A stretch of DNA of 33,334 bases, taken from contig MNZJ01000018.1 in NCBI GenBank assembly GCA_001873565.1, positions 1 to 33,334 of the forward strand, read 5' to 3'. The notes under the pieces were generated by a model. The model did no database searches. It was not told the DNA's origin and saw only the letters and a program-made list of their open reading frames with translations. The position numbers were made by a program, and so were the translations under genes. The DNA comes from Candidatus Peregrinibacteria bacterium CG2_30_44_17 (lineage in GTDB: Bacteria > Patescibacteriota > Gracilibacteria > UBA1369 > UBA12470). Position 1 is the stretch's first letter, and each line of letters opens with the position of its first letter. This document shows positions 10,719-19,168 of the stretch, piece after piece.

Positions 10719-13700
10719 TTAGTTTATCTTCCTCACAGTGTAAATGCTAGCCCCCAAAAGTGCAAATGCAGTGGCAACCATAATAAGAACAAGTCCTTGA
10801 GCACTTGATACGGGGAATAAGTTCGCTGCCCCCGAACTATCGAATACTACTTCTTTTGTAACGGAATAAGAGCTTCCTGTATCGCTTTCTGCAGTAAGCA
10901 TCATCACTACAAGGCCCCATGATGATTCATAAGAAACATCTTTGAAAGTTCCGCTTAAACATGTCGTATCCTCGAGGTCATGATCATTGTCTCTCACGCC
11001 ATCGCCGTCGGTATCAAAATATACGTTTTTATCAAGCCAACAGGTGATACCTGCGCCGCTATCAAGATTGGTAGAGTACGAAATGTCTATTTTCCCCGAA
11101 GATCCGGTTATATGAATTTTTTCATCGCTTGGGCTTGGCTCAGGATTAGTCGTCAAATAAGCTATTACGTCAACTACAGGCTCTTCTAAGTCTATATCGT
11201 TAGTTACAGAGTCTTCCTTGTTCATGGAGTCCATGACTGTTAATCCCACTGTATATGAACCGTAATCGTCGTACTCATAACTTGGCTCATTACTGACGGA
11301 GTCCGTGTCGTTTGCCGGATCACCATCTCCATCCGAGTCAACTAGCGTATCGAAATCCCAAGAGTAAGATGTTATGACTATATAGTCTTCCGCTACAGAT
11401 GAATTATCTGCGAAAGACACTTCTAACCCCTCTGATTCCGATGTGAATGCCGCTGTTGGCGGATCCGTATCTGCAACTAATATAGATTGCTCAACGCTAT
11501 CTGATTGTCCCGCTGAGTCGTATATGACCAAACTAACCTTGTACGTTCCCTCTATGTCGTAAGTGTGAGATGGATTTTGCTCTTTTGAATCAGCATCATC
11601 GCCTGCATCGCCGTTTCCATCCGAGTCCACTAACGTGTCGAAATCCCAATACACAGCGTATAAATCAGCTCCATTAGCTTCGTCTGTTGTTGATTGGTTT
11701 GTGAAATCAACATCGAAACCTCTGACGTCGTAAACAAATGCCGCCTCGGGACCTTGAGCTGTCGATTCCACACAAAGCTGTATCTTCTTATCCGAAGTCG
11801 TAGACTGTCCCTTCTCGTCAGCAACTTTTAGCCTTATGTCGTAGCATCCTACAGCCTTAGGTTCGTACACATATGTTGCATCTGCCGTTTCTGTGTTGTC
11901 GCTGAAACCATCGCCTTCCAAATCCCAAATGTATGCCAAATCGTCACCATCAGGGTCATACGAGCTACTTGATAACGTGACCGTATCTCCCAGCATTATA
12001 ATAGTATCACTTAGGCTGAAGTCCGCCACAGGGGCTTCGTTTTCGCCATTCTCTACCGTTATGGTAGGATCTTCATCAAGCTCGTCACGACTCGACACTG
12101 TGTTTCCCGCTTTGTCTGTGACTTCCACTGCTATTGCATACTCTTTTTCATCTCCTGTGCTGCCATTGGTACCTATAGTCAATGTTGCCGAAGATGTTGT
12201 CGTGATTTGAGCACCCAGTTTTTCACTGGTTTTGCCAGTATCGTAATAATACCAGTAATAGTTGGCGATACTTCCATCCGGGTCCTGTGCGTCCACTTCC
12301 ACCTTCACATCAACCGGTGTTACGTTTGAATCAGACTTGATACTATAAGTCAGAGAGTCAATCTCCGGTGGTTCTTCTGCGACTACGATCTCAAAAGTGT
12401 CTTCCGAGTTGATTGACGGATCGTCTTTATCGCTGACTGTTAGCGTGACTTTATAGGTTCCAAGTTCGTCGTATGTATGACGCGCCGTTTTCTCCGTGCT
12501 AAGAGTTTTGTCTCCAAAATCCCAGCTGTATTTCAAGTCTCTTGAAGTACCGTTTGTATTTTGAGATCCACTCGCGTCGAACGTGAAGACCGTTGTAATA
12601 TTGCCTTCAATATTGAGGCTGCTTACCGGCATGCCGTCTTTTTCAAGAGATATGACTGCAATAGTCGAATTGCTGTCTCCTATATATACCTTCTTTGTAT
12701 AAGTGTTTTCGTTATCGTCATCATCGTATACGGTAAGCTCAACGTTGTATGTGCCTGTCTCCGTATATGTGTGGTAAAAAGTTTTTGATGAAGAACCTTC
12801 CTGTGCTTCGTCTTCGCCATCACCGTAATCCATGACGTATGCAACAGCATTATCGCTTGATCCTGTGAAAGACACTTCCACGCTACCCGCTTCGTCATCT
12901 AGCTGATGAGCCGCTCCGCTTGGCATTTCCAGCAGCACATCCAGCACGGAATAGACCATAATGTCACTGCTTGTTTCGCCGGTTTGTTTCAAATCTTCAT
13001 CTTCGTACTGATCACTGACTTGAAGCGTTACATTGTGACTTCCAGCTTCATAAAATTTCACTATTGGAGACTCTGACGTTTCGTCTGTTCCTTCTGCGAA
13101 TTCGTAATCGCTGCCCTCTGTTCCGTCAAATGTCCAAAGATAGGACAGTGTGTCCCCTTCGTCAGGGTCATAGCTGTTTCCTCCGTCGAAATGGACTGTG
13201 CCTGGCTGTGAGTCGTCCGGTATAGAATAATCGAATTTAGCGATGGGAGTTTGAGATTCGACAGTTATGTCTATCGTGTCCGTATCCTGATTGCCGGAAC
13301 TGTCTGTAACCGTCAGAGACACCGTGTAGACTCCAGGTTCGTCAAAGTTGGAACTCAAATCTTCGGTCGATCCCAAATCTATGCTCTTGCCGGTAGCTGA
13401 CACGGCCGACCACATATAAGCTGTAATCGCTCCTATGTCTGTCTTTGACGCAGATCCATCGAATGAGAACACTGTCTCAGGAGTTCCTGACCAGAATTGA
13501 GATTCAATCCTGGCTGCAGGCGATGCTATTACTATAGTGCCTACATATCTATCAGTAGTGCCTGTAACATCTGTCACTTCCGCTTTAAGCGTATAACTTC
13601 CTTCCCCAGGATATGTACAAATTTCTTCGATCAAGCTTTCGCTTGTATAACTCTCCACACCATTTCCACAATCAAGTGTGTGATAGACAGTAGGATCTCC

Positions 13701-15494
13701 ATTGCCGTCAGTTGTGCCAGCCATCGAAATAGTTATACCGGTTGTTCCTTCCGCCTCAGTGAATTTAGCAGTGGACTCAATTATATTTTCTTCGTAATTC
13801 GCCAATACAACCGTGCTTGAACTTGCGTAAGCTTTCAAAACTATGTTCGACTCCGGAGGATTGACAACTATGCTTATATAAGCCTGTCCAGGTGCGACAT
13901 CAGGATCCTGACTGTATACCCTTAGTCCGACCCTGTATGTTCCTACATCATAATAAGTCTTACTTACCGAGGCTCCTTCTGATTCATACTTGCCATCACC
14001 ATCAAGGTCCCAAGTGTACTGAGAAGAGTCTATCGTCAGATCGCTTGGATCGTAAGAGTCCAAACCGTCGAAGCTTACTATTAGAGGTGAACTGCCTTCT
14101 TTCACGCTTGCTGTAATGACGGTATCCACAAATTCAAGATTCTCGACAAGGGAATACAGGGTCCCCAGATCCGTAATGACATCTCTAAGTACGGAGTTTG
14201 CGAGGAATAATCCGGTAATGAGATCTCCTAGTTTGGAGTCTTCCAGGAATGACTTGTTGGCATCCCAATCCAGACGGCTTACTCCATCCGTACCGAAATA
14301 CCCAAGTACCGTATCGATTTGGTCATCTATTGTCTTGAGAGTTGATCCTCCGTCCTTAACCGCTGCCTGTGATCCAGTCGCATCAAATAGTGTCTTATAT
14401 GACGTCAGAGTTGCCCCGTATTCATCCAGTTTTTCATTAAAATCTATACTTGCCGCTTTCGCAACGCTTTTGAGACCCATTTTGATGTCTTTTTGCAGAG
14501 TATCAAAGTCACCATATTCATAACGGTCCGCATAGGCCACCGGTATAAGCCAGTTATGATTATTGTCAGAATACATGACACCCCATCTCGCATCATATAA
14601 TATTTTTTCAGTATATGCCTTCAAGTCTGATGCAGCTTGATATGTGTCACTATTCCTATCGACCATGTCCATTATTTCCTGTGCGACACTATCTATAATT
14701 TCCACATATTCTCTTACTAAAGCAACTTTCTCCTGATCAATTGATTCATCAGCATCATAATCGTCTTTATCAAACAGACTGAACATGTCTTTAACAGGCT
14801 CAGTATCAGGTGTTTCAAAAGACCAAGCATATTCTATATAAGCATGGACATTGGAATACGTTGTAAATGCAGCGATATATTCTGTCGCCATATCCTGTAA
14901 ATCTTTTGCGATTTGATTGACGTTGTATACATCAACCTGGTCACCTGTTACTTCGTCGCCGGATGAGTAGACGGATCCTTCTCCACGGTCTTCCCCTCCA
15001 CCTGCAGCATCGCTGAGTAGAGTGTTGACTATTGCGTATGATGAAAGCACAACCAAGATACCAATTACTGCGTACATAACTGACTTCTTGCCTTTTGTCG
15101 TCTGTTCTTCTTGTCCTCCCGCAGTTACATAAAGGAAACCTCCGTAAATGATTACAACTATAGCTGCAATTCCAAGGAATGACAGAGCGAAGTTTGTTAC
15201 ATTGAGAATATACTCACGTGCCGTCTTGGCCTTTGTAAGTCCCGAATCGTAACCTTCCGAACTTGGTGCTTCGAAAGATCCTTCAAACTCTGTGAAGCTT
15301 GTGATGTCTCCAGAGTCTTCACAACTCAGAATACCACCTGTGGACTCCTCCATCCCTTCACACAGCGAGTCTTCCACTCCATCCGGAACAAGATCGATCG
15401 CTATGTCCGCGGCTGACGCAAGAGGGATCATGCACATTACCGCAGCCATTACGCCGATTAGCATTACAGCCAGTTTTTTTTGTATTAGCATCAT
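10719..15494 (-). CDS. Giant surface protein: pilin-like module plus about ten PKD-like repeats
   Basis: This 1591-residue protein starts with a signal peptide (about 1-28, ending LASA-AD). A two-helix module follows (about 93-155: NVTNFALSFLGIAAIVVIIY, loop AGGQEEQTTKGKK, second helix ending AIVNTLL) that matches the modules in the two upstream genes. Residues about 185-460 are helical. The rest is a chain of PKD-like beta repeats, some canonical (YTWDLDGDG, YSWDFGDK, YIWDLEGDG, YWDFDTLVDSDGNGD, YSWDFDTLVDSDGDGD) and some degenerate, with Asp-rich calcium-type loops. A C-terminal helix (SAQGLVLIMVATAFALLGAS) and a basic tail anchor the end. The gene has its own promoter, overlapping a terminator. 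It is likely a long membrane-anchored surface fibre or adhesin. Confidence 0.85.
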   Translation of the reverse strand: MMLIQKKLAVMLIGVMAAVMCMIPLASAADIAIDLVPDGVEDSLCEGMEESTGGILSCEDSGDITSFTEFEGSFEAPSSEGYDSGLTKAKTAREYILNVTNFALSFLGIAAIVVIIYGGFLYVTAGGQEEQTTKGKKSVMYAVIGILVVLSSYAIVNTLLSDAAGGGEDRGEGSVYSSGDEVTGDQVDVYNVNQIAKDLQDMATEYIAAFTTYSNVHAYIEYAWSFETPDTEPVKDMFSLFDKDDYDADESIDQEKVALVREYVEIIDSVAQEIMDMVDRNSDTYQAASDLKAYTEKILYDARWGVMYSDNNHNWLIPVAYADRYEYGDFDTLQKDIKMGLKSVAKAASIDFNEKLDEYGATLTSYKTLFDATGSQAAVKDGGSTLKTIDDQIDTVLGYFGTDGVSRLDWDANKSFLEDSKLGDLITGLFLANSVLRDVITDLGTLYSLVENLEFVDTVITASVKEGSSPLIVSFDGLDSYDPSDLTIDSSQYTWDLDGDGKYESEGASVSKTYYDVGTYRVGLRVYSQDPDVAPGQAYISIVVNPPESNIVLKAYASSSTVVLANYEENIIESTAKFTEAEGTTGITISMAGTTDGNGDPTVYHTLDCGNGVESYTSESLIEEICTYPGEGSYTLKAEVTDVTGTTDRYVGTIVIASPAARIESQFWSGTPETVFSFDGSASKTDIGAITAYMWSAVSATGKSIDLGSTEDLSSNFDEPGVYTVSLTVTDSSGNQDTDTIDITVESQTPIAKFDYSIPDDSQPGTVHFDGGNSYDPDEGDTLSYLWTFDGTEGSDYEFAEGTDETSESPIVKFYEAGSHNVTLQVSDQYEDEDLKQTGETSSDIMVYSVLDVLLEMPSGAAHQLDDEAGSVEVSFTGSSDNAVAYVMDYGDGEDEAQEGSSSKTFYHTYTETGTYNVELTVYDDDDNENTYTKKVYIGDSNSTIAVISLEKDGMPVSSLNIEGNITTVFTFDASGSQNTNGTSRDLKYSWDFGDKTLSTEKTARHTYDELGTYKVTLTVSDKDDPSINSEDTFEIVVAEEPPEIDSLTYSIKSDSNVTPVDVKVEVDAQDPDGSIANYYWYYYDTGKTSEKLGAQITTTSSATLTIGTNGSTGDEKEYAIAVEVTDKAGNTVSSRDELDEDPTITVENGENEAPVADFSLSDTIIMLGDTVTLSSSSYDPDGDDLAYIWDLEGDGFSDNTETADATYVYEPKAVGCYDIRLKVADEKGQSTTSDKKIQLCVESTAQGPEAAFVYDVRGFDVDFTNQSTTDEANGADLYAVYWDFDTLVDSDGNGDAGDDADSKEQNPSHTYDIEGTYKVSLVIYDSAGQSDSVEQSILVADTDPPTAAFTSESEGLEVSFADNSSVAEDYIVITSYSWDFDTLVDSDGDGDPANDTDSVSNEPSYEYDDYGSYTVGLTVMDSMNKEDSVTNDIDLEEPVVDVIAYLTTNPEPSPSDEKIHITGSSGKIDISYSTNLDSGAGITCWLDKNVYFDTDGDGVRDNDHDLEDTTCLSGTFKDVSYESSWGLVVMMLTAESDTGSSYSVTKEVVFDSSGAANLFPVSSAQGLVLIMVATAFALLGASIYTVRKIN

Positions 15495-15517
15495 TTTGTT
15501 TGGTTTTATATCTATTA

Positions 15518-15546
15518 ATTATACCAAAAAAACGCCTTTTGTTCAA
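15518..15546 (-). promoter_or_regulatory. Promoter of the giant PKD gene
   Basis: Read on the minus strand, TTGAAC (15546-15541), 17 bases and TATAAT (15523-15518) form a strong sigma-70-type promoter ending 23 bases before the ATG at 15494. The -35 box lies in the loop of the terminator of the upstream gene. Confidence 0.75.
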
Positions 15547-15552
15547 GAGGCG
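15526..15552 (-). terminator. Intrinsic terminator overlapping the next promoter
   Basis: On the minus strand CGCCT (15552-15548) pairs with AGGCG (15537-15533), and seven T's follow (15532-15526). It sits about 24 bases after the end of the three-module membrane protein gene. The stem is short (5 bp), so termination is probably partial. Confidence 0.6.
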
Positions 15553-15575
15553 GTCTGTGTTTTTTTTATGCGGCT

Positions 15576-16538
15576 TTAAGAGCCAAGTCCGATGACCGTA
15601 TTTGTTATAGCGTAAGCTGCACCGGCAAGTATTATTCCTATAATCGCACCCATGATAATTTTCTTCCCTTTTCCTGTGTTTTCTTCGCTAACTCCTCCCG
15701 TGAGATACATATATCCGCCAGCTACCAACGCTCCGACAGATGCAAGACCGATAAGTCCCGACACGAAGTTTGTGATACTCGCTATTAATAATTTGCCTTG
15801 CGAGATACCAAGTGTAACACCTTCTCCCGGCTTGTATGGGAACAAGATATCTTTCACTAGCAGTTCTGAAATACCGATCATCACAAGACCTATAATCGAC
15901 CAGAAAATGTGATTTTTTGCGCTGTTGATTTGCTCCTCACTGTATGCGCCTGCAATCATACGGACACCATCGTAAGCTATCGCAAAGACTGCCAACGCCG
16001 ATACAAAGATCTCAATCAGTGTGTATATACCTTTTATTGCCTTGTTCGCCCTGTCTCCAAACTCCAGTGCCTGTTCTTGCCCCTCAAGGAAGATTTCACC
16101 TTCCGCTCCGAAGAACATATCTTTTACGATTGTGTCCGCCATGAATATGAGTATAAGCCCCGTAATTGCCCAGAAGAAGTACTCTTTCTGTTTATTAATT
16201 TCCTCATCGGATCCTTCACCGGCTGTGAGCAGCCTGAATGCCGATATCATCATGAAAAGTACCGCCAATCCACCCAGAATATACTTGATGAAATCTATCA
16301 CATAATAAATCGAGCTTGTTATCCCCGTGAGCCCCTCCCCTTCATAAGCATTCCCGTGTTCCGTTCCGGCCTCGTCATAACTCGGCAATTCTATAGTCTG
16401 GCCCGCCGTCTCAAGCAGCTCGTCATAACCAACAGCCGCCGCCGCGTTCTGTATATTTGCAAAATGCATAACTGTTAATCCCGTGACCAGCAGAAGCATG
16501 AATACTGTGAATTTTTTGATCTCCTTAAATTTGTCCAC
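15576..16538 (-). CDS. Membrane protein with three tandem pilin-like two-helix modules (B)
   Basis: This 320-residue protein has a signal peptide (about 1-36, FANIQNAAAA). Three modules of the same plan follow: helix, short polar loop with paired acidic then basic residues, helix. The loops are AGEGSDEEINKQKEY, AGAYSEEQINSAKNH and GGVSEENTGKGKK. Modules 1 and 2 end in very similar words (DTIVKDMFF, ELLVKDILF). Module 3 (ITNFVSGLIGL...AITNTVIG) is closest to the last module of the upstream gene and to that of the giant PKD protein. The plan resembles the T4SS_pilin/VirB2-like family, whose members normally have one module. The start overlaps the end of the upstream gene by 14 bases. The role in an envelope channel or fibre is inferred. 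Confidence 0.8.
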   Translation of the reverse strand: MDKFKEIKKFTVFMLLLVTGLTVMHFANIQNAAAAVGYDELLETAGQTIELPSYDEAGTEHGNAYEGEGLTGITSSIYYVIDFIKYILGGLAVLFMMISAFRLLTAGEGSDEEINKQKEYFFWAITGLILIFMADTIVKDMFFGAEGEIFLEGQEQALEFGDRANKAIKGIYTLIEIFVSALAVFAIAYDGVRMIAGAYSEEQINSAKNHIFWSIIGLVMIGISELLVKDILFPYKPGEGVTLGISQGKLLIASITNFVSGLIGLASVGALVAGGYMYLTGGVSEENTGKGKKIIMGAIIGIILAGAAYAITNTVIGLGS

Positions 16539-17463
16539 TGATGATTGTTGTTACGATTGCAAAAGCACCATAAATCAGAAGAGCACCGAGAACCGAATTC
16601 ATTAGTATTTTCTTGGCTTTCCCGGCTTTTTCTTCGTCTCCGCCAGCCATTGCATACATCAGCCCTCCCCCAACCATTCCAAGTATCATCAATGGCCCCA
16701 CAAAGGCCACCATGAAATTCGTAATCGCCACTATCTCCGCAACACCGGCCTTGGCATCTATGCTGACTACGGCCATATTATCGCCTGTATCCGGAGTAAC
16801 TTTGAATAAGACTTTTTTGACCACAAAATCTCCGATGATTACGAAGAAGATCGCTACGAATCCACCCATTAAGTTCTTCTTTTCCCGAGTGACATTCTCT
16901 TCACTACCGCTGGCCATAATCATCACCATACCCGATCTTACGATTGTAAATACAGCAATGCTGCCGAGAATATACTTCAGGAATGTAATTATGAGGGTGG
17001 CTCTTTCATCAAATATTCCAGCCCGCTCTATGATTGATTCTTCGCTACTTAAGAAACTACCGTCGCTGAAGTTGAAAACTTCTGATAGCGATGCTGCAAT
17101 ACTTATCAAAGCCAAACCTATGATGCCCCATATAAGAGCTCTTTTTTGTTTTGTTACCGTTTCTTCGTTACGACCAGATATAACAAACATGAAACCATAC
17201 AGAACGATTAACGCTATACCGACTGCACCCATGATGACGCGTATCGGTCCCATCAATGATGCTATCAGGTTGCCGGTTTTTTCTACCGCATCGGCGCCTT
17301 CCGGATTTGGAACATCTCCAAAATTAGATGCATCAGGCAAACCAATAAAAGCTGCGTTGGCGGAGATCGGAGATGACCATATCAGATATATGAGTACTCC
17401 AACCAGAATCGCTGCCACGATCAAAGCCTTGATATAAGAATGCTTTTTAGAGACTTTTCGCAT
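16525..17463 (-). CDS. Membrane protein with three tandem pilin-like two-helix modules (A)
   Basis: This 312-residue protein starts with a basic segment and a signal anchor (KALIVAAILVGVLIYLIW). Its three two-helix modules have the loops SGRNEETVTKQKR, ASGSEENVTREKK and AGGDEEKAGKAKK. Module 2 ends DFVVKKVLF, echoing the ends of modules 1 and 2 of the downstream protein. Module 3 (ITNFMVAFVGPLM...AIVTTIISG) matches the other third modules. It is the first gene of the minus-strand cluster, has a good promoter at 17497-17525, and overlaps the next gene by 14 bases in a different frame, so the two are probably co-translated. VirB2/TrbC-type pilins have one helix pair; three in one chain is unusual. 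The function is unknown. Confidence 0.8.
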   Translation of the reverse strand: MRKVSKKHSYIKALIVAAILVGVLIYLIWSSPISANAAFIGLPDASNFGDVPNPEGADAVEKTGNLIASLMGPIRVIMGAVGIALIVLYGFMFVISGRNEETVTKQKRALIWGIIGLALISIAASLSEVFNFSDGSFLSSEESIIERAGIFDERATLIITFLKYILGSIAVFTIVRSGMVMIMASGSEENVTREKKNLMGGFVAIFFVIIGDFVVKKVLFKVTPDTGDNMAVVSIDAKAGVAEIVAITNFMVAFVGPLMILGMVGGGLMYAMAGGDEEKAGKAKKILMNSVLGALLIYGAFAIVTTIISGQI

Positions 17464-17884: not shown

Positions 17885-18430
17885 ATGGCAAAACAGGCTA
17901 AAGGTACGGGACGTAACTGGTATGTTGTACATACTTATTCAGGTTATGAAGATGCTGTACGTGAAGCTTTGATTCAGAGAATCGAGTCTATGAATATGCA
18001 GGACAAGATTTTTGATGTTGTAGTGCCTAAGGAGACTCAAATTGTAATTAAAAAGGGAGAGCCAAAGACTGAAAAGAAGCGCCTTTTCCCTGGTTATGTT
18101 CTCGTGGACATGATGGTAGATGATGAATCTTGGTATGTAGTCAGGAACACTCCTAACGTAACCGGATTCGTAGGTTCGGGCACTATCCCTGTTCCCGTTT
18201 CGGAGGAAGAGTTCAAGGTTATCAAAAGGCATATGGGACAGGCAGAACCTAAGTTCAAAATTGATTTTGCAAATAGCGACCACGTTGTTGTTCTCGATGG
18301 TCCTTTTGCTAACTACGAAGGTATCATCAATAATGTTGACGAAGAGAAAGGTAAAGTGAAGGTACTCATCACAATCTTCGGACGCGAAACGCCTGTCGAG
18401 CTTGATTTCACACAGATCAAGAAGAAGTAA
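17885..18430 (+). CDS. nusG: Transcription termination/antitermination factor NusG
   Basis: NusG binds RNA polymerase to influence pausing and couples transcription with ribosomes or Rho. At 181 residues it has the family length. The N-terminal NGN domain begins NWYVVHTYSGYEDAVREALI and includes KRLFPGYVLVDMMVDDESWY and VRNTPNVTGFVGSG. The C-terminal KOW domain shows VVVLDGPFANYEGIINNVDE, then KVKVLITIFGRETPVELDF. A TATAAT at 17857-17862 could be the -10 box of an additional promoter, but I see no matching -35. It follows secE; the next gene is not rplK but a lineage-specific membrane protein. Confidence 0.96.
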   Translation: MAKQAKGTGRNWYVVHTYSGYEDAVREALIQRIESMNMQDKIFDVVVPKETQIVIKKGEPKTEKKRLFPGYVLVDMMVDDESWYVVRNTPNVTGFVGSGTIPVPVSEEEFKVIKRHMGQAEPKFKIDFANSDHVVVLDGPFANYEGIINNVDEEKGKVKVLITIFGRETPVELDFTQIKKK

Positions 18431-18499: not shown

Positions 18500-19168
18500 A
18501 TGAAAAAATTCACCATTTTCACCATCATCTTCTCCGCCATTGTCATCATTACTGTTGGCGAGCTTGTTGTGAACGATTATTTGGGAAGGCGCGAAGCAGA
18601 GACACAAGAGGCAGACAGCAAGACACAGACAGCAGAAAGTGAGGCAGAGACACAAGAGGCAGAGACACAAGAGGCAGAGACACAAGAGGCAGACAGCAAG
18701 ACACAGACAGCAGAAAATACAGAGGATGTGGCAGCAGATGCTTCTTCCGATACTTATTTATCAGGTTTGGATTACGCTTCTTATGGATTTACTGACTATG
18801 AGCTTCGTGAGAAAACTTTTCCAACAAGTGTTTTCTATCTACTGGAGTTTGATGATGACAGCGTGATACCTTACTATTATGAGCTTTTTGAAGGGGAAAC
18901 ATATGTTGGAGGGCTATATGAAATCGTATGTAGCGATCCTACCGAGGCTTTTACCGTATATACCGACCTTAAGCAAAGTGGCATTGATCAAGAAGGTAGC
19001 GGCACTCTGAATGAGGTGAATAATTACGGTGATGCTTCTTTCTATTTCAATGACAATGTTAAGACGACAAGTATCTTCTTAGTGGTACTAAAAGAGAATC
19101 GCGTTTATGCGTTCACGTACGTCCATTCGTATCACGACTATTTCAAGTACCTTTTTCAGACTTTCTAA
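18500..19168 (+). CDS. Membrane-anchored protein with a Glu/Gln/Thr repeat linker
   Basis: This 222-residue product has an N-terminal membrane helix (about 4-25, FTIFTIIFSAIVIITVGELV), then a low-complexity linker (about 31-80) built from AETQEA and DSKTQTAE units, then a soluble domain of about 140 residues (YLSGLDYASYGFTDYELREK to the end) rich in aromatic residues. The linker DNA is a tandem repeat (18597-18715), so its length probably varies between strains. There is no Cys for lipid attachment. I do not recognise the C-terminal domain. The gene sits between nusG and rplK, an unusual place for an envelope protein; the rplK promoter lies downstream. Confidence 0.75.
   Translation: MKKFTIFTIIFSAIVIITVGELVVNDYLGRREAETQEADSKTQTAESEAETQEAETQEAETQEADSKTQTAENTEDVAADASSDTYLSGLDYASYGFTDYELREKTFPTSVFYLLEFDDDSVIPYYYELFEGETYVGGLYEIVCSDPTEAFTVYTDLKQSGIDQEGSGTLNEVNNYGDASFYFNDNVKTTSIFLVVLKENRVYAFTYVHSYHDYFKYLFQTF
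18597..18715 (+). repeat. Coding tandem repeats (15-bp units within a duplicated block)
   Basis: The unit GCAGAGACACAAGAG occurs four times, three of them in tandem near 18652-18696. A longer block beginning with it and running through GCAGACAGCAAGACACAGAC occurs twice. All are in frame and encode the AETQEADSKTQT linker. Confidence 0.8.

Follow-up and report, generated by a model that had tools for sequence, protein, structure and literature searches.

Genes and hairpin modules of the locus

The window examined here, the whole 33,334-nucleotide stretch of DNA from Candidatus Peregrinibacteria bacterium CG2_30_44_17 (contig MNZJ01000018.1), carries on its minus strand four genes in the order A, B, C and P4, the first three of which encode hairpins of the type IV secretion system (T4SS) pilin family and the last two of which encode large PKD-domain proteins (Table 1). 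It lies in contig C37 of a 1.17 Mb genome that is assembled in 51 contigs and is 97% complete, and the closest named relatives of protein B belong to Candidatus Peregrinibacteria GW2011_GWF2_43_17 and RIFOXYA2_FULL_41_18 (57-60% identity). The bacteria that carry such paired triplets of hairpins are tiny, probably host-dependent Patescibacteria. A first-pass annotation, made from the letters alone, had placed seven pilin-like modules over three genes as three, three and one, and had noted a polar loop with paired glutamates in each; this count, the positions of the three open reading frames (ORFs) and the T4SS-pilin identity were all confirmed.

The evidence for family membership comes from Pfam T4SS_pilin (PF18895), whose gathering cut-off of 26.6 bits is exceeded by A (59.9 bits, E = 2.5e-16, three stretches), B (90.8 bits, E = 5.9e-26, three stretches) and C (38.0 bits, E = 1.7e-9, one stretch). 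Scored singly, five of the seven modules of the window pass on their own, and A3 falls just under the cut-off at 26.5 bits, rising to 27.1 with its neighbours. B alone also passes the TrbC/VirB2 family PF04956 (46.5 versus 27.9 bits; C reaches 16.5 bits and A is unlisted) and NF045849, the Mbov_0395 family of pilin-like conjugal transfer proteins (40.6 versus 40), A and C being under both cut-offs. The profile searches brought up no unrelated family for which a tandem form has been described. Hydrophobic N-termini and hairpins are seen by sequence and AlphaFold, with one signal-like N-terminus to each chain in A, B and C, and A and B contain little besides their hairpins; together they hold six divergent VirB2-like modules in tandem, fused rather than encoded by separate genes. 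Acidic residues are conserved at the paired-glutamate columns of the loop in every position class, with C1 reaching at least 70% at the second column only.

C proteins as a rule end in a C-terminal transmembrane segment (TM). P4 was recovered downstream of C in 23 loci, the window included, and in these 23 orthologs an N-terminus of varying length, often proline-rich, is followed by one TM and then by a hairpin whose loop is basic in most orthologs, of the KKDD...KKRG kind. P4 has no Pfam pilin match (PF18895). When its hairpin was compared with the module profile in a single profile-profile comparison, the score was 24.0 (E = 1.1e-4), which was reached by none of 100 column shuffles and by two of 200 shuffles that preserved the helix-loop-helix segments. 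Two P4 orthologs (L049 and L068) match the module hidden Markov model (HMM) at 6e-5 and 3e-3, and the other P4 orthologs gave no match in the same search. The P4 hairpin is a probable divergent eighth module, and because it has the same layout as the others the module count may be eight.

A and B overlap by 14 bp in the window. Across the order, the median intergenic distances are 3.5 bp for A-B (30 loci), 65 bp for B-C (27 loci) and 15.5 bp for C-P4 (22 loci), and the short A-B and C-P4 spacing indicates that A-B-C-P4 form an operon, which is divergent from nusG-rplK-rplA. In most loci of the order, nusG and rplK are separated by a 222-aa ORF (window 18500-19168, plus strand) that has no family match over cut-off. 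A near-identity search for phage matched nothing.

Table 1. Coordinates of the genes and hairpin modules in the window.
Feature	Position	Strand	Remarks
Gene A	16525..17463	-	312 aa; signal-like N-terminus and three T4SS_pilin hairpins; orthologs in 15 families of the order
Module A1	17065..17271	-	residues 65-133; own HMM 2e-19
Module A2	16798..16998	-	residues 156-222; own HMM 2e-21; PF18895 alone 24.0 bits, just under cut-off
Module A3	16531..16740	-	residues 242-311; aromatic subfamily; own HMM 1e-22
Gene B	15576..16538	-	320 aa, GTG start; signal-like N-terminus and three hairpins
Module B1	16104..16319	-	residues 74-145; second helix with a late acidic residue; own HMM 7e-25
Module B2	15837..16046	-	residues 165-234; second helix with a late acidic residue; own HMM 2e-23
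Module B3	15591..15791	-	residues 250-316; aromatic subfamily; own HMM 2e-21
Gene C	10719..15494	-	1591 aa; signal-like N-terminus followed by a single hairpin and a helical region; eight PKD_4 stretches; C-terminal TM
Module C1	15012..15218	-	residues 93-161; aromatic subfamily; own HMM 5e-26
Gene P4	8046..10433	-	795 aa; proline-rich N-terminus, then a TM and a divergent hairpin; six PKD_4 stretches
Candidate eighth module in P4	9702..9929	-	residues 169-244; profile-profile comparison
nusG	17885..18430	+	divergent neighbour, marker of the locus

Slot identity and conservation

PF18895 was found in all 40 genomes searched (our own and 39 relatives), and from 33 of these a multi-module locus, chosen by PF18895 hits in long ORFs, was fetched. 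Seven genomes (G015, G016, G023, G025, G028, G034 and G036) were left out of the locus count; G015, G016, G025 and G034 nonetheless have full-length matches to the B profile. The layout of three, three and one, and with it the gene order that the first-pass annotation had proposed to check in relatives, is present in 28 of the 33 same-order loci and is therefore not due to chance. The five others comprise three cut by contig ends (L059, L076 and L081), one in which A is split into two ORFs (L078) and one with two of the three modules in A (L082). NusG was recognised at 28 of the 33 (the window and 27 others); the loci without it are short or at contig ends (L057, L067, L076 and L081) or, in L078, retain the next genes of that cluster. 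As the operon stands beside core ribosomal genes throughout the order, it is probably important.

The identity of each hairpin is tied to its place. One HMM was built for each of the seven positions, or slots, and trained without the family of the query; across 208 modules from 15 families, 207 were assigned to their own slot (A1, 28/29; A2 and A3, 29/29 each; B1, B2 and B3, 30/30 each; C1, 31/31); the median margins lie at 26-44 bits. In a FastTree phylogeny of the same 208 modules every one of the seven slots is an exact clade, and in a smaller tree of 143 modules that includes outside members the B1 clade holds only 10 of 12. A3, B3 and C1 together form a clade of 90/90 modules with a support of 0.993, and other groupings are B3 with C1 (0.87), A2 with B1 (0.93) and A1 with B2 (0.16, unsupported). 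A plain duplication of one triplet as the origin of A and B is not favoured, because the tree pairs A2 with B1 and, without support, A1 with B2, and not A1 with B1 or A2 with B2.

The first-pass annotation had noticed that the third modules and the single module begin and end alike and look orthologous by position. The motifs are indeed present (ITNF...AIVTT in A3, ITNF...AITNT in B3 and VTNF...AIVNT in C1), and they are thus part of a wider pattern, since both the HMMs and the tree extend positional orthology to all seven slots. Judged by their sequences, A3, B3 and C1 are one of two hairpin subfamilies. A column late in the second helix is F or Y in 90/90 A3, B3 and C1 modules and acidic in 29/30 of B1, 29/30 of B2, 18/29 of A2 and 3/29 of A1, and the slots are therefore not interchangeable.

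The survey was widened to a class sample of 145 genomes. At 1e-15, a threshold within reach of single modules too, 122 of them match the B profile; 99 match the N-terminal profile of C, and in those outside the order it is mostly just the module that matches. Fifteen A-B loci were fetched over 14 families of the class, of which nine have a clean adjacent pair of triplets (L146, L147, L148, L150, L151, L155, L159, L160 under translation table 25, and L161); the remaining six have four modules in each gene (L149), split frames that were left unjoined under table 11 (L152, L154 and L158), one triplet (L157) or none (L153). The paired four-module genes lie at L149:10107-13635, in family f97. Further class loci show paired triplets (L093, L095 and L097) or one triplet (L096). 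Family f96 (L148 and L161) has the whole arrangement of nusG, A-B, C and P4; B and C are separated there by an additional gene of about 340 aa with one module (L148:8410-9426 and L161:8066-9091), the L148 copy being without a Pfam hit. In family f17, C and P4 occupy a separate locus (L094 and L156). The A-B pair is therefore a class-wide core whose link to PKD genes depends on lineage: the reported linkage of the triplets to giant PKD proteins is conserved within the order, and elsewhere in the class A-B often stand alone, so that A-B can work without C or their partners are unlinked. Family f100 has VirB4 and mostly no A-B match at 1e-15, for which fast evolution could be the explanation.

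Other classes carry arrays of separate single-module genes, such as the eight in each of L098 and L100, as well as partial fusions with two modules in one gene (L107) or four (L106). Selected for their many hits, these loci are not representative; several have six modules and the literature gives 2-11, for which reason a rule of eight modules per array was dropped. No one-to-one mapping of our slots onto the members of these arrays is visible, most of them scoring best with the C1 profile. Some arrays lie directly 3' of a solute-binding protein gene (SBP_bac_1/8; L098:4135-5466, L107:5774-7072 and L108:11683-13092). In giant proteins of other classes a single N-terminal module is joined to Big_5/TIG domains and not to PKD; in L103-L105 and on G120:C1 such giants are preceded by a one-module protein of about 600 aa, and the open frame in G120 spans 14266 aa. 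Another cluster of modules comes after a PilT-like T2SSE ATPase gene in our own genome (L016:6385-10257, G000:C34; 1, 1, 2 and 1 modules), where T2SSF/type IV pilus genes lie nearby, and in L080 (L080:798-5459; five single-module genes).

Explanations for the fused hairpins

The reading that we prefer, and to which we give about an even chance, is that A and B are a fused VirB2-like pilin array that forms a membrane base of fixed composition from unlike parts, with C and P4 as outward stalks. The two fused chains would be exported, and their six hairpins would then span the cytoplasmic membrane, the termini on its outer side and the glutamate- and lysine-rich loops on its inner side. Each hairpin would occupy a fixed place in a hetero-oligomeric base of six specialised hairpins. 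C and P4 would attach to this base by their own hairpins, and their PKD chains would extend from the cell as stalks that serve to touch a host or a neighbouring cell, or to allow exchange with it. Slot identity and the class-specific helix residues are the strongest evidence for such a base, and strict slot identity fits a fixed assembly better than a polymer of one subunit. The pilin-family matches, the conserved layout and tight spacing of the operon, the PKD domains and C-terminal TM of C, the precedent of a published essential array of six pilins (PMC12857230; PMC10633639) and the occurrence of a VirB4-like ATPase in most genomes of the class sample also speak for this reading.

Several observations weigh against this reading. 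Slot identity is also expected if fused modules evolved in place without mutual contact. The locus contains no gene for a motor or for any other T4SS component. The AlphaFold model of B has moderate confidence (pLDDT 70.9, pTM 0.48) and no specific fold match; the fixed membrane assembly of the first-pass annotation is still conjectural. In most other families of the class, the fetched stretch shows A-B without PKD neighbours. The VirB4-like ATPase gene of our own genome (G000:C35; PF19044, 95.0 bits; NF045971, 363.9 versus 325 bits) is an orphan on a contig other than that of A-B-C. Finally, in two genomes, G005 and G016 (100% and 99% complete), neither family nor protein search found VirB4, yet A-B-C are kept. 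As for other structural searches, the model of the C module with its helical region has a pLDDT of 71.9 and a pTM of 0.60, and Foldseek returned no match at E <= 1e-3 for it or for B. VIA-align gave generic long helices for B and listed no VirB2 or TraA structure, which proves nothing, and a sequence search of the PDB with the B profile gave 0 hits.

The orphan VirB4-like gene adjoins gyrA-like and protease-like ORFs (named by sequence reading), and no further secretion gene is evident around it. The gene of a PKD/thrombospondin type 3 protein lies close to it (L118:2124-3431, G000:C35). In the order sample VirB4 was found in 18 of 20 genomes, our own among them, and in the class sample in 138 of 145. 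Co-occurrence with VirB4 was rejected as proof of a T4SS role because the ATPase is near-universal in the class sample and missing in two operon-bearing genomes; hits to PF02534, weak and spread over several ATPase-like ORFs, were set aside and not used. That the orphan ATPase drives or is linked to A-B-C-P4 is plausible but unproven.

A bolder form of the same reading, which we offer only tentatively, is a transmembrane machine of fixed 3+3+1+1 stoichiometry, formed by the fusion of a pilin array into two three-hairpin chains, to which each of the two PKD stalk proteins adds one hairpin. What was formerly a polymer would then be a closed, numbered ring or barrel that joins the membrane to host-contact fibres and could work without a VirB4 motor.

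Somewhat unlikely, in our estimate, is an ordinary VirB2-type pilus in which the fused hairpins are extracted from the membrane and polymerise, three subunits to a chain, with C or P4 at the base or tip. Membership of the pilin family speaks for it, as does the pilus-like structure that a review suggests for the published Patescibacteria array (PMC12857230), but slot specialisation over 15 families exceeds the need of a one-subunit filament, the locus has no assembly ATPase and the operon persists in the two genomes with no VirB4 found. Moreover, the host-adaptive variation proposed for VirB2 arrays (PMC12102498) predicts fast change and not slot conservation.

We consider it unlikely that the hairpins are passive anchors that only keep secreted proteins membrane-bound, with C and P4 as adhesins, A and B as scaffolds or retention proteins, and no machine at all. 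The single N-terminal module of the Big_5/TIG giants would suit such a role; the usual C-terminal TM of C is counted on the same side. A and B, however, have so little beyond their hairpins that there is nothing large to anchor, and slot-specific conservation and the split between acidic and aromatic residues exceed the needs of an anchor.

It is quite improbable that A and B stand in for VirB6, the polytopic channel subunit that is missing, in a reduced T4SS driven by VirB4. TrbL/VirB6 (PF04610) was over cut-off in 0/20 genomes, with weak matches in 4/20, and VirB8 (PF04335) in 0/20, although divergent forms of either could be missed; together with VirB4 in 18 of the 20, and with the reported scarcity or absence of VirB6 in Microgenomatia and Gracilibacteria (PMC12102498), this would leave a vacancy for A and B to fill. 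Against it, A and B do not adjoin virB4, occur without detectable VirB4 in G005 and G016, and mostly give no match in f100, where VirB4 is present.

Tandem-hairpin c-subunits exist in ATP synthases. A rotor- or channel-like hairpin ring that by analogy would use the intramembrane acids of the first and second modules, which B1, B2 and often A2 conserve late in their second helix, is scarcely credible, tandem hairpins notwithstanding, given that the sequence family is VirB2-like and not ATP-synthase c, that the acid is placed towards what is predicted to be the outer end of its helix and that no partner stator gene was seen at the locus.

Should the preferred reading of a fixed membrane base hold, it would bear on the means by which Patescibacteria keep hold of their hosts and exploit them. 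A natural fusion sets both the number and the order of its subunits, so that 3+3(+1+1) would be a concrete stoichiometry, and slot identity argues that the divergent paralogs of such arrays are parts of a defined hetero-assembly and not antigenic variants. A and B also offer two small expressible proteins for structural work.

Comparison with known systems

To our knowledge, TrbC/VirB2 and Mbov_0395-type pilins are single-module proteins. They share with A-B a two-helix module with a short polar loop (the PF04956 and NF045849 profiles span 98 and 80 positions), and B passes both. The premise of the first-pass annotation that one module polymerises is nevertheless not right for Patescibacteria, in which multiple divergent VirB2-like pilins have already been published (PMC12102498; PMC12857230). 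In 383 Patescibacteria assemblies, 441 VirB2 arrays of 2-11 pilin genes are reported, with PF18895 among the profiles used (Quinonero-Coronel, 2025; PMC12102498). Six divergent VirB2-like pilins are essential for epibiotic growth in the saccharibacterium S. epibionticum (PMC12857230), and a pilin series in a T4SS cluster has likewise been found essential (Wang, 2023; PMC10633639); no architecture of the published essential array was found in the literature searched.

The triplet fusion is a variant of these arrays, which were already known. Like them (PMC12102498; PMC10633639), A-B belong to PF18895 and set several divergent paralogs side by side. The published arrays consist of separate genes, often near virB4, and are reported as variable (PMC12102498; PMC10633639), whereas A-B are two triplet proteins whose slots are kept over 15 families, beside nusG and giant PKD genes and away from virB4. 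The term "PKD" has 0 hits in the accessible part of PMC12102498, where "tandem" is used for gene arrays, and no title or abstract in the open-licence literature searched describes fused pilin triplets or their PKD link.

CPR_pilus_PamR (NF058578) shares only a PKD-like domain with C and P4, whose PKD stretches score 25.4 and 35.2 bits, far below its cut-off of 300, and no paper joining PamR, pilus and CPR was found. C and P4 also recall the giants of Vampirococcus lugosii, membrane proteins of very large size that carry PKD as well as adhesion domains and have been proposed to serve in host attachment (PMC8080830); a link to pilin hairpins is unmentioned in the accessible part of that paper ("VirB", 0 hits).

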